In this document: in pieces, positions 27,314 through 32,597 of the stretch | Layout of the letters: each line of letters opens with the position of its first letter | How positions within the stretch are numbered: position 1 is the stretch's first letter | From: a virus | Reading direction: 5' to 3' (one strand) | DNA: 64,000 bases | IMG/VR virus record: IMGVR_UViG_3300025929_000001 | Coordinates: 31,418-95,417 of that record | Position numbers and translations under genes: made by a program | Notes under the pieces: model-generated | What the model saw: only the letters and a program-made list of their open reading frames with translations | Database searches by the model: none | Told to the model about the DNA's origin: nothing

Positions 27314-28243
27314 TTAAAAAAGTTGTTGGGACATTGCACACGGATACTGATAGTTATTGCGTCTAGCATCCTCGTTTACAAGGTCGTTGAGCTCCATGTA
27401 ACCTAGCATGTTGTAGATTGCGCGGCTCTCGTAAATCGAGCTAAGCCGATCATAATTAAAACCCTTACGATCCAACATGTTAGCGAGCTGTTGCTGCTCT
27501 AACTCTGTAAGTGTGGTAAAATGACGCCCGTTCTCATGCTTGCTTGGACTGTCCTTGGAAACCGCGATTGGGCCGTGTTCACTGGTAAAGATGCTTCCAA
27601 ACGCAGCAGCCTGAATCCAGGAGGACGAGTCACAAGAATGCCAAGGGTAGCGCATCATCAGGTTGGGCGACGTCATACCAAACCCATGCACTTTGAGCTT
27701 CGCACGACCCGACCCGTCCATCATGCGTTCCCACACGCGGTCTAACCACACTTCTTGGTCTTTAGCCGACTTACCGACCAGACCTCCAATCGTGATGTAC
27801 GAGTAGCGCTCCACATACCAGTCAAGATAACGTATGTCCTCACCGTAGTGGAAGCAGGGTAGCGGTTTAGCATCCTGCCGTTCCATCTCGAGTTGGTTTT
27901 GCCAGGTCTTTAGCGGATCACCAATGCCGTCAAGTACGGAAGCCATGACAGCACCATCTTCAACGCGTAGGATGTCCCGGTTGCGACGGATGTAATCACA
28001 ATAATCATCAATGCTAATATGCACGCCAAGGCTGTGAGCCGAGAAAGCACCTGAGTCCAGGAACACCTTGTGGCCTTGTTGTCTGATGACATCGACGAAG
28101 CGCTGTCCAGATATGTAATGATAGGATTCCAAAATGTGGGGTACACAACCGACGATTTCTTTTTCGATGTCTGTGAGTTTTTCATAACGTGCCTGTGTCT
28201 CTCGATAGTTATTTGTGAAAACTGCCGCAAGGAACAAATTCAT
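27314..28243 (-). CDS. dpdA: DpdA: DNA 7-deazaguanine transglycosylase
   Basis: DpdA proteins are TGT-fold enzymes that swap guanine in DNA for a 7-deazaguanine base. The 309 residues have the family signatures: KVFLDSGAFSAHSLG (Asp near 68 in the active site), YITIGGLVG (substrate-binding Gly-rich loop), KVHGFGMTSPNLMMRYPW and SCDSSSW (second active-site Asp). Catalytic roles are by analogy with characterised DpdA and TGT. It lacks the tRNA-recognition features of bacterial Tgt and lies beside folE-queD-queC-queE, so DNA is the likely target. Start ATG overlaps the HNH stop (ATGA). The gene lies downstream of an internal terminator (29026-29060). Confidence 0.88.
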   Translation of the reverse strand: MNLFLAAVFTNNYRETQARYEKLTDIEKEIVGCVPHILESYHYISGQRFVDVIRQQGHKVFLDSGAFSAHSLGVHISIDDYCDYIRRNRDILRVEDGAVMASVLDGIGDPLKTWQNQLEMERQDAKPLPCFHYGEDIRYLDWYVERYSYITIGGLVGKSAKDQEVWLDRVWERMMDGSGRAKLKVHGFGMTSPNLMMRYPWHSCDSSSWIQAAAFGSIFTSEHGPIAVSKDSPSKHENGRHFTTLTELEQQQLANMLDRKGFNYDRLSSIYESRAIYNMLGYMELNDLVNEDARRNNYQYPCAMSQQLF

Positions 28244-29898: not shown

Positions 29899-30522
29899 TT
29901 ACATTGCGATTTTGAGGAACTCTGCACGAGTCTCGGCCTGGTCTTTCATCACACCGCGCAGAGCGGAAGTAACAGTGTGATGTCCCTGCTGGCAAATGCC
30001 GCGTGACTCCATGCACATGTGCCTAGCTTTTATGACAACACCGACGCCCTTTGGCTGCAAGTGCAATTGCAGCGCGTCTGCGATCTGGCAAGTAAGACGT
30101 TCTTGCACTTGGAGGCGACGTGCAAAAGCGTCAGCAAGGCGAGACAGTTTGCTAAGACCAACAATATTACCATCAGGGATATAAGCAATAGTAGCGGTGC
30201 CAAAAATATCAGCAAGATGATGCTCACACTTCGAGTAAATCGGGATGTCTTTAACGACGACCATTTCATCATAACCCTCCGAGCCGTCTTTGAACACCTT
30301 GAGGAGTTTAGCGATGTCGACGGAATACCCGCTAGTCCAGTGCTTCCAAGCTTTGACCACACGCGCTGGCGTTTCTGCCAAACCTTCGCGGTCTGCATTC
30401 TCACCTTGCACGACGCCGCCAAGCAGGTCGTAAATAATCCCTTCCTTGCTCTTTTGGGCAAGGTAGTCCATCTCGCGTTCTTCCTCGATCGCGGTCAGTT
30501 GTGCGTTGATATTGTTATCCAT
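29899..30522 (-). CDS. folE: GTP cyclohydrolase I
   Basis: Converts GTP to 7,8-dihydroneopterin triphosphate, the first step to preQ0. The 207 residues contain AETPARVVKAW, the zinc site SKCEHHLADIFG, IPDGNIVGLSKLSRL, ERLTCQIADAL and HMCMESRGICQQGH, which supplies the third zinc ligand and substrate contacts. Length and motifs are those of FolE1. Its position beside queD assigns it to 7-deazaguanine rather than folate synthesis. Confidence 0.95.
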   Translation of the reverse strand: MDNNINAQLTAIEEEREMDYLAQKSKEGIIYDLLGGVVQGENADREGLAETPARVVKAWKHWTSGYSVDIAKLLKVFKDGSEGYDEMVVVKDIPIYSKCEHHLADIFGTATIAYIPDGNIVGLSKLSRLADAFARRLQVQERLTCQIADALQLHLQPKGVGVVIKARHMCMESRGICQQGHHTVTSALRGVMKDQAETRAEFLKIAM

Positions 30523-30525
30523 GTC

Positions 30526-30975
30526 TCACCCTGTATAAACTGCTGAGTTAGCGCCGTGTTCTTTTACTTCGCATGACACAAGCTTAACGCGACCGATTTG
30601 TCTAACATCGAACAACCATTGCACGACCATGTCGAATACCATCTTTGCGAACATCTCGCAACCGACTGCCGGAACGGTAATGACTTCTGCTATGCCTAAG
30701 CCAGCAAGCGCACAGATTTCGTCATGTTGCGGGTCATCTTCTGCGACCAGCAATTTATGGTCGAAGGTATCTTGCAGCATCTTTTTAATGCTAGCAAGAC
30801 CGCCAAAGTCAATGACCCACATGCGCTCGTCGAGCAGTTCCGACTCGAACACCAGCTTGACCGCTATTGCATAGCCATGCAGATATTGGCAGTGTGAATG
30901 CGTTGCACGCCATTGACGGAATGCGCAGCTAAGGCCAATATCATGCCCCCATTGTTTTGTGCTTTGGAATGGCAT
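30526..30975 (-). CDS. queD: 6-carboxytetrahydropterin synthase
   Basis: Makes 6-carboxy-5,6,7,8-tetrahydropterin from dihydroneopterin triphosphate. In 149 residues: FRQWRATHSHCQYLHGYAI (zinc His, catalytic Cys), WVIDFGGLASIKKMLQDTFDHKLL, and a C-terminal CEVKE (active-site Glu). The canonical HGH is HGY here, so one usual zinc His is Tyr. This matches a QueD subgroup with an FRQWRA N-terminus. Stop and start overlap with queC (TAATG). Confidence 0.93.
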   Translation of the reverse strand: MPFQSTKQWGHDIGLSCAFRQWRATHSHCQYLHGYAIAVKLVFESELLDERMWVIDFGGLASIKKMLQDTFDHKLLVAEDDPQHDEICALAGLGIAEVITVPAVGCEMFAKMVFDMVVQWLFDVRQIGRVKLVSCEVKEHGANSAVYTG

Positions 30976-31757
30976 TATACCTCCGCAGACGTGCCGCGTT
31001 CGATGTCGTAGTTGCTGCTGAGCGGCAGCTCCATCAGACCAGCTTTAACCGCACGCATCACCAGCGGGTCAGGGACACCGGCTTCTTCGAAGCCTTTTGC
31101 ACGCAGCAGCGTCGCATGGTCGTGACCGGTCGGCGGATACTTGCCGTCGTAAGATGTGTGGCTATACGCCAGCGCTGCCATGCAATCGTGTAAGCTCATT
31201 GCAAGCTTGACCGATTCCGCCTTGGTAAGCGACATCAGCGGGGTCAAAATGCGCAGTGGTGGGATTGTGCCAGCTTCGCCGGTGAAGGTACCATAGTTGC
31301 AAGCTTCTTGCAGGGTGTTGATAAATACTGCGCGGCAGTCAGGATACCCGCCGTTATCTTCCTGGCAAACACCGGTCACAAGGATGTTGCAGCCCAGGAC
31401 GTATGCGCGGTTCGCTGCAACGGTGATGAACAACTGGTTGCGCATGGGTACGAAGGTCTTTTCCAGACCGCCGGGCAGCGACTGATGGTCAGCGTACTGT
31501 TCGAGCTCGACCGACTTGTTAGTCAGTGGGGACGTACCAGCGAGGATGCCGTCGCCAAGACGGATGAACTCGTGCTTCTCGCGGGGAATACCAGCCATCA
31601 TGGCAACGTGCTGTGCGGCGTCGAGTTCGATGCGGTGTTTTTGACCGTAGTCGAAAGTCACGCAGTGCACGTCGTAACCTTCGTTGATTGCCCAGAACAG
31701 GCAGGTCGTGCTATCTTGACCGCCGGACAGAATTACAAGTGCCTTTTGCTTAGCCAT
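30975..31757 (-). CDS. queC: QueC-like 7-cyano-7-deazaguanine synthase lacking zinc cysteines
   Basis: QueC uses ATP and ammonia to turn 7-carboxy-7-deazaguanine first into the amide and then into preQ0. The 260 residues have the PP-loop SGGQDSTTC, VTFDYGQKHRIELDAA, and the C-terminal RAKGFEEAGVPDP. The usual C-terminal zinc site (about C-Y-x-G ... C-G-x-C-x-x-C) reads SYDG ... TGHDHAT, so all four cysteines are replaced, with His and Asp nearby. The ATG at 31757 has TAGGAGTC upstream and is preferred over an in-frame start at 31781. It is coupled to queD. Confidence 0.9.
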   Translation of the reverse strand: MAKQKALVILSGGQDSTTCLFWAINEGYDVHCVTFDYGQKHRIELDAAQHVAMMAGIPREKHEFIRLGDGILAGTSPLTNKSVELEQYADHQSLPGGLEKTFVPMRNQLFITVAANRAYVLGCNILVTGVCQEDNGGYPDCRAVFINTLQEACNYGTFTGEAGTIPPLRILTPLMSLTKAESVKLAMSLHDCMAALAYSHTSYDGKYPPTGHDHATLLRAKGFEEAGVPDPLVMRAVKAGLMELPLSSNYDIERGTSAEV

Positions 31758-31767
31758 TTTTAGACTC

Positions 31768-32469
31768 CTATTCAACATCAATTATCTTGTGGGTCTGCAA
31801 TTGCAGGATGTAACCATGCTTCATGCAGCTAGCTTTGACCGCATCGACGTTGACCTTGTAAATGACTTCGTCTTTGGGGTCCATGGGCTGCACATAGATA
31901 GGCCTGGTATTGTCTTTGGGCGGCCGAGCAAGTTGCGGCGATGCTGTGTGGCCAAGCGCTTGGACTGGCAAACCGTCCGCGTCGTTAAGGCTGTCAGCGC
32001 TTAAGACGTATTTGAAGGCGTTGATATGGCTGAGCAGCTTGGGGCTGACCTTACCCGTCTTGGGGCTGCAAATGACCACAACCTTAGAGGGGAAGTCCTC
32101 CGGCGGTGCGAGCGTGCCGTTAGTCTCGACCTGAACGGTGAAACCTGCCGACAACAGCTTTTTGCATAGCGGGGTGATGTTTTGGCGGAATGGTTCGCCG
32201 CCGGTTATGACAACCAGGCAAGGCTTGTCAAGTGGGTTAAAGAAGAACACCTGATCGACTACGTCATGCATCGACATTTCCTTGCGACCAACCGTGTAGT
32301 CGGTATCGCAACCTGGGCACTGTAGATTACAGCCAGCCAGACGGACGAATACAGCGGGGTGTCCGCTGAAAGGGCCTTCGCCTTGGATTGTGTAGAAGAT
32401 GCTATGAACCGAGAGGATGATGCCGTTTGAGTCCCGATATTTTTCAATCGGTTGTTGGTTCTGGTTCAA
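31768..32469 (-). CDS. queE: 7-carboxy-7-deazaguanine synthase, radical SAM
   Basis: Rearranges 6-carboxytetrahydropterin to 7-carboxy-7-deazaguanine. Has SIFYTIQGEGPFSG, the iron-sulfur motif CNLQCPGCDTDY (C-x3-C-x2-C), ITGGEPFRQN (SAM-binding GGE) and VQVETNG. No ATG lies near the N-terminus. I start it at TTG 32469, preceded by GAGG at 5 nt. A longer TTG start at 32493 has poorer spacing. First gene of the preQ0 operon. Confidence 0.93.
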   Translation of the reverse strand: MNQNQQPIEKYRDSNGIILSVHSIFYTIQGEGPFSGHPAVFVRLAGCNLQCPGCDTDYTVGRKEMSMHDVVDQVFFFNPLDKPCLVVITGGEPFRQNITPLCKKLLSAGFTVQVETNGTLAPPEDFPSKVVVICSPKTGKVSPKLLSHINAFKYVLSADSLNDADGLPVQALGHTASPQLARPPKDNTRPIYVQPMDPKDEVIYKVNVDAVKASCMKHGYILQLQTHKIIDVE

Positions 32470-32597
32470 TGTAACCTCACGAGGAACAGACAAGCCCTAG
32501 GCCTGTTGTGTACGGGTTTTGATGCGGGAGGGAGTGAACGGTTTTTACCGGGAAGCGCACGTTCCTTCTAGGTGGTGCACTTGCCGACAGGATAACC

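Follow-up and report, generated by a model that had tools for sequence, protein, structure and literature searches.

A QueC homologue in a viral genome without the four zinc-binding cysteines, and its relatives in phages and Hydrogenedentota

Among the closest described relatives of the protein reported here are the canonical QueC enzymes (PF06508, TIGR00364; structures 3bl5 and 2pg3), for which a four-cysteine zinc motif has been described as one of two hallmarks (PMC13329287). Mutagenesis of E. coli QueC identified Y35, R99, Y131 and Y189 as essential, and Y189 is the tyrosine inside the zinc region (PMC13329287). QatC and Cap9 also have a QueC-like fold with a PP-loop, and both modify proteins. 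In QatC a cysteine zinc site is retained but YxQxHxxE, VPxRN and YPDC are missing; the protein is defined by the zinc motif variant C(x)19CGxCxxRR, by extensions at both termini and by the absence of YxQxHxxE and YPDC (PMC13329287, PMC13279940). At the level of gene content, FolE, QueD, QueE, QueC and DpdA form the minimal set associated with dPreQ0 in DNA (PMC6884629). Here, we compare these systems with a QueC homologue encoded in a virus.

The former zinc site of QueC

The window, that is, the whole stretch of DNA analysed, comprises 64,000 nucleotides (positions 31418-95417 of a 95.4-kb IMG/VR virus record). It encodes on the minus strand a QueC homologue of 260 residues (30975..31757, stop codon included). 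The ATG at 31757 is preceded by a TAGGAG Shine-Dalgarno-like sequence and is a likelier start than an upstream TTG; residues are numbered from the codon at 31763, which matches the alignments. The protein scores above both family cut-offs, with 179.4 bits against 22 for PF06508 in Pfam (E=8e-53) and 169.7 bits against 150.3 for TIGR00364, the NCBIfam equivalog. It carries the QueC signature as SGGQDS (SGGxDS), YGQKHRIE (YxQxHxxE), VPMRN (VPxRN), YPDC and SYDG, so that the PP-loop (SGGQDS, residues 13-18, 31727-31710, minus strand), which an earlier note on this DNA had called intact, is indeed so, together with the remaining motifs. All four residues that are essential in E. coli are retained in the alignment, the equivalent of Y189 being Y205. 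An AlphaFold2 model, built without metal or ligand, has a pLDDT of 86.4 overall and 66-72 in the changed loop. Its best PDB match is B. subtilis QueC 3bl5 (Z 20.1, 194 residues, rmsd 3.3, 40% identity), which places the protein in the QueC fold. The window protein shares with canonical QueC the fold, the PP-loop, the substrate and ATP motifs, the essential tyrosine and the pathway context, but it lacks the C(x)8CxxCxxC zinc-binding site and has an extra conserved tail.

The difference is located in the former zinc loop (31085..31175, minus strand), where the translation contains ...ALAYSHTSYDGKYPPTGHDHATLLRAKGFEEAG... The cysteine columns were set by alignment to the solved structures 2pg3 and 3bl5 (C-Y-N-G...C-G-x-C-x-x-C), and in the window protein they are occupied by S204 (31154-31152), T212 (31130-31128), D215 (31121-31119) and T218 (31112-31110). 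The translation and this alignment confirm the earlier reading of the segment as SYDG...TGHDHAT, with all four zinc cysteines lost. Seven cysteines are present outside these positions, one of which, C143, is the cysteine of YPDC. The loop that replaces the zinc site is itself conserved, with the pattern HT[SA]YDG-x-YPP-xxx-[DN]H[AS][TNS], and H202, Y205, D206, G207, Y209, P210, P211 and H216 are invariant across a 25-sequence alignment. Across the cysteine-less family described below, the first cysteine position is S/A, the second T/V/I/L and others, the third D/N and the fourth T/N/S.

The conserved polar residues bear on an alternative in which a different metal site, formed by H202 and H216 with D206 or D215, replaces the thiolates; the earlier note had suggested that histidine or aspartate residues might take over. 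H202 and H216 are kept in 94/94 loci and D206 in 92/94, and the third position is D/N in every cysteine-less locus where it is readable. However, two zinc-type relatives with all four cysteines (L109, L115) also carry both histidines (HTC...CH[AS]C). Thus, the histidines did not arise to replace the cysteines, and the loop seemingly derives from in-place cysteine swaps and not from a new site. In addition, the first position is often alanine and the second often valine, isoleucine or leucine, and in five of the 14 QueC sequences from Hydrogenedentota (L203-L207) the loop reads SYCG, D206 being replaced by a cysteine two positions past the lost first one. We therefore regard a substitute metal site as unlikely.

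The extra C-terminal tail of the window protein, AGLMELPLSSNY (31008..31043, minus strand), has the pattern LPxTxNY, which is present in nearly all cysteine-less QueC sequences and absent from zinc-type ones. The tail was considered as a substitute for zinc and rejected, since the former zinc loop was modelled with no less confidence once the tail was deleted; in this crude test, the pLDDT over blocks 201-220 was 66/72 with the tail and 64/75 without it.

Gene neighbourhood and viral relatives

The minus-strand gene order is QueE, QueC, QueD and FolE, followed further downstream by DpdA. The genes encode a QueE-like radical SAM CDG synthase (31768..32493), the QueC homologue, a QueD-like CPH4 synthase (30526..30975), the GTP cyclohydrolase I FolE (29899..30522), which retains the zinc-binding motifs CEHH and HMC, and a DpdA-like DNA transglycosylase (27314..28243, phrog_887), all on the minus strand. 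The window thus carries the complete FolE-QueD-QueE-QueC-DpdA set, and its queC is encoded with other preQ0 genes. Nearby genes encode a helicase, a Cas4-like exonuclease, a DNA polymerase and its clamp, a ligase and a primase. No QueF was found above the cut-off in the record, where the single weak match falls on folE. The ATG of queD overlaps the queC stop codon (TAATG), and a Shine-Dalgarno-like GGAGGT for queD lies inside the end of queC (window 30973-30990); this arrangement suggests that the two genes may be translationally coupled.

The QueD-like protein is also altered. It lacks two of the three zinc histidines of known QueD (HGH is changed to HGY and GHR to FRQ), and an invariant histidine precedes the catalytic cysteine (SHC). 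This type accounts for 57 of the 92 QueD genes encoded in the loci collected here, including those of Iggy and R5C, and is found as well in phages whose annotated queC is of the Gat-QueC type or of another type. Thus, the losses in QueC and QueD are not strictly linked. It is conceivable, though doubtful, that the phage pathway has dispensed with zinc twice, at the structural site of QueC and at the catalytic-zinc histidines of QueD; the operon producing preQ0 would then have FolE as the only one of the three enzymes with a recognisable zinc site. As a broader explanation, general zinc sparing was rejected, given the intact FolE motifs and the occurrence of altered QueD with other queC types.

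The same cysteine loss occurs in 92 further viral loci, including those of phages Iggy, R5C and MMDA13, which were collected by two scans of IMG/VR and phage records (two of the 92 are genomes of named phages that recur in IMG/VR). The change is shared by 94 separately fetched loci, none of which has a cysteine at any of the four positions; thus, the loss in the window protein is neither a sequencing error nor a lone oddity. The SGGxDS, YxQxHxxE, YxDC and [TS]xYxG motifs are present in 110/110 sequences sorted as cysteine-less. One further sequence (L153), flagged as cysteine-less by pattern, has four cysteines and was a false call. In most loci, queC lies between queE and queD. QueF with an intact CPxTGQPD motif is encoded near cysteine-less QueC in 14 distinct viral loci (15 including an R5C duplicate), and the R5C QueF scores 125 bits against an NCBIfam cut-off of 86.9. 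For MMDA13, its authors named a QueF-like protein from HHpred, and this protein was not recognised in our Pfam and NCBIfam scans. A YdjM-like membrane protein (PF04307) is encoded directly after the MMDA13 queC in the modified-base gene cluster (L003 5780-6193). The MMDA13 QueC has been called 'canonical' in the literature, and our literature search found neither a report of a cysteine-less QueC nor an assay of one.

Among the named phages, Iggy (Iggyvirus, Queuovirinae) provides the most direct comparison. Its QueC has 51% identity to the window QueC and the same four substitutions in the alignment. Iggy and its relatives share with the window QueE, QueC, QueD, FolE and DpdA as well as the neighbouring helicase and Cas4-like exonuclease. 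The two differ in that the Iggy QueC, with 353 residues, extends further at its C-terminus and that the host of Iggy is known. The DNA of Iggy has been reported to carry dPreQ0 (Olsen 2023, as cited in PMC11008142 and PMC11945000).

Bacterial copies and the evolution of the loss

When GTDB genomes were scanned, cysteine-less QueC genes were detected in two bacterial contigs (L110, L111). Their neighbours include thyX, a polyA polymerase-like gene and FBPase (names read from translations), no phage genes are in view, and queC adjoins queE in this chromosomal setting. In total, 14 streamlined Hydrogenedentota genomes of 0.8-1.1 Mb carry the cysteine-less form, while Hydrogenedentota with larger genomes have an ordinary QueC at ~35% identity. 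In 14/14 of the small genomes it is the sole full-length QueC, and QueF is present in 14/14; in the two genomes examined in more detail, TGT, QueA and a QueD with HGH motifs are present as well. QueF consumes the nitrile preQ0. The queuosine pathway via QueF depends on preQ0, so both steps must be carried out by the cysteine-less QueC, unless a second QueC has escaped every one of the 14 assemblies, which may be incomplete.

These gene partners bear on another alternative, raised by the earlier note, in which catalysis halts at the amide ADG; the phage DNA would then carry dADG. ADG is the intermediate of QueC, and dADG is known in the DNA of Campylobacter phages CP220 and CPt10 and of MED16 (PMC8306585). 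However, MED16 lacks a queC gene, which means that its dADG has a source other than an enzyme of this kind (PMC8306585), and no residue shown to matter for the QueC reaction is lost. A stop at ADG is contradicted by QueF in the 14 viral loci and the 14 bacterial genomes and by the dPreQ0 reported for Iggy in the citing papers, and we consider it very unlikely.

Regarding the origin of the cysteine-less form, several zinc-type bacterial sequences (L109, L112, L113, L115-L117, L119) fall inside the cysteine-less group in trees calculated without the zinc columns. A single cysteine-less clade was recovered in 0% of bootstraps and was not rejected by the AU test (p 0.124). This topology suggests that the cysteines may have been lost several times or in some cases regained. 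The clearest example is the QueC of Desulfovibrio An276 (L115 6001-6729), which has a full zinc site and yet nests in a subclade of cysteine-less phage proteins whose MExVGxR-type insertion it shares; in a comparison with 119 genomes of its family, its next-best match reached no more than 48% identity. Regain, recombination or a retained ancestral site are possible origins of this sequence.

Proposed function and implications

Catalytic motifs that are kept and a cysteine loss that extends across the family point to an enzyme that likely works without zinc. This was the best-supported part of the earlier note's interpretation, which otherwise fared less well on the replacement residues and failed on the ADG stop. 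In the explanation that we judge probable, the window QueC is a CDG-to-preQ0 synthase in which the zinc-tetrathiolate loop has been exchanged for a metal-free loop and which feeds DpdA for the synthesis of dPreQ0. The enzyme would catalyse both ATP-dependent steps, from CDG to ADG and from ADG to preQ0. FolE, QueD, QueE and QueC would together supply preQ0 to DpdA, which would insert it into the phage DNA as dPreQ0, most likely for protection from host nucleases. The cysteine loss and its conservation, the intact catalytic signature, the gene set and the co-occurrence with QueF are observed directly; the reaction product, the absence of a metal and the DNA modification are inferred.

Several points stand against this proposed CDG-to-preQ0 synthase. 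Besides the possible gaps in the bacterial assemblies and the lower confidence of the metal-free model in the changed loop, the dPreQ0 of Iggy may have another source: its host P. aeruginosa should have its own QueC, so host preQ0 could explain the modification. In addition, zinc has been stated to be required for QueC function (PMC13329287). By analogy with proteins that have zinc-free (C-) versions, such as P. aeruginosa DksA2 and HemB2 and alternative ribosomal proteins (PMC9213440, PMC2770081), the zinc of ordinary QueC may be structural and replaceable. Like the window QueC, these proteins have lost zinc-binding cysteines but retain their function or are predicted to do so. They are, however, second copies tied to zinc starvation, whereas both the phage record and the bacteria have the cysteine-less QueC and no other.

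A further reading is that the QueC has decayed or taken on another role, for instance as a scaffold without catalytic activity or as a protein-conjugating enzyme similar to Cap9/QatC. Such repurposing has precedents among QueC relatives (PMC13329287, PMC13279940), and the window model closely matches Cap9 in structure (Z 19.2), but this reading is highly implausible, since the identity and signature of the protein are those of QueC and not of QatC, QatC retains its zinc cysteines, the catalytic motifs are strongly conserved and queC mostly keeps its place between queE and queD. The window protein has YxQxHxxE and YPDC, which QatC lacks, and no cysteine motif. It is also distinct from Gat-QueC, which has an N-terminal glutamine amidotransferase domain; no such domain was found in its 260 residues, and the best PHROG match is confined to the QueC part (144-373 of 418). 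The protein is thus best described as a variant that would work like QueC and departs from the zinc-motif part of the family definition.

In summary, a large cysteine-less family that is found in many phages, and on which a bacterial lineage relies for its only QueC, indicates that this enzyme can dispense with zinc and that the zinc is probably structural. The cysteine motif is accordingly unsuitable as a filter for QueC annotations, and its loss should not be read as a sign of dADG-modified DNA. The cysteine-less QueC proteins are natural enzymes with which the zinc requirement of the family can be tested.
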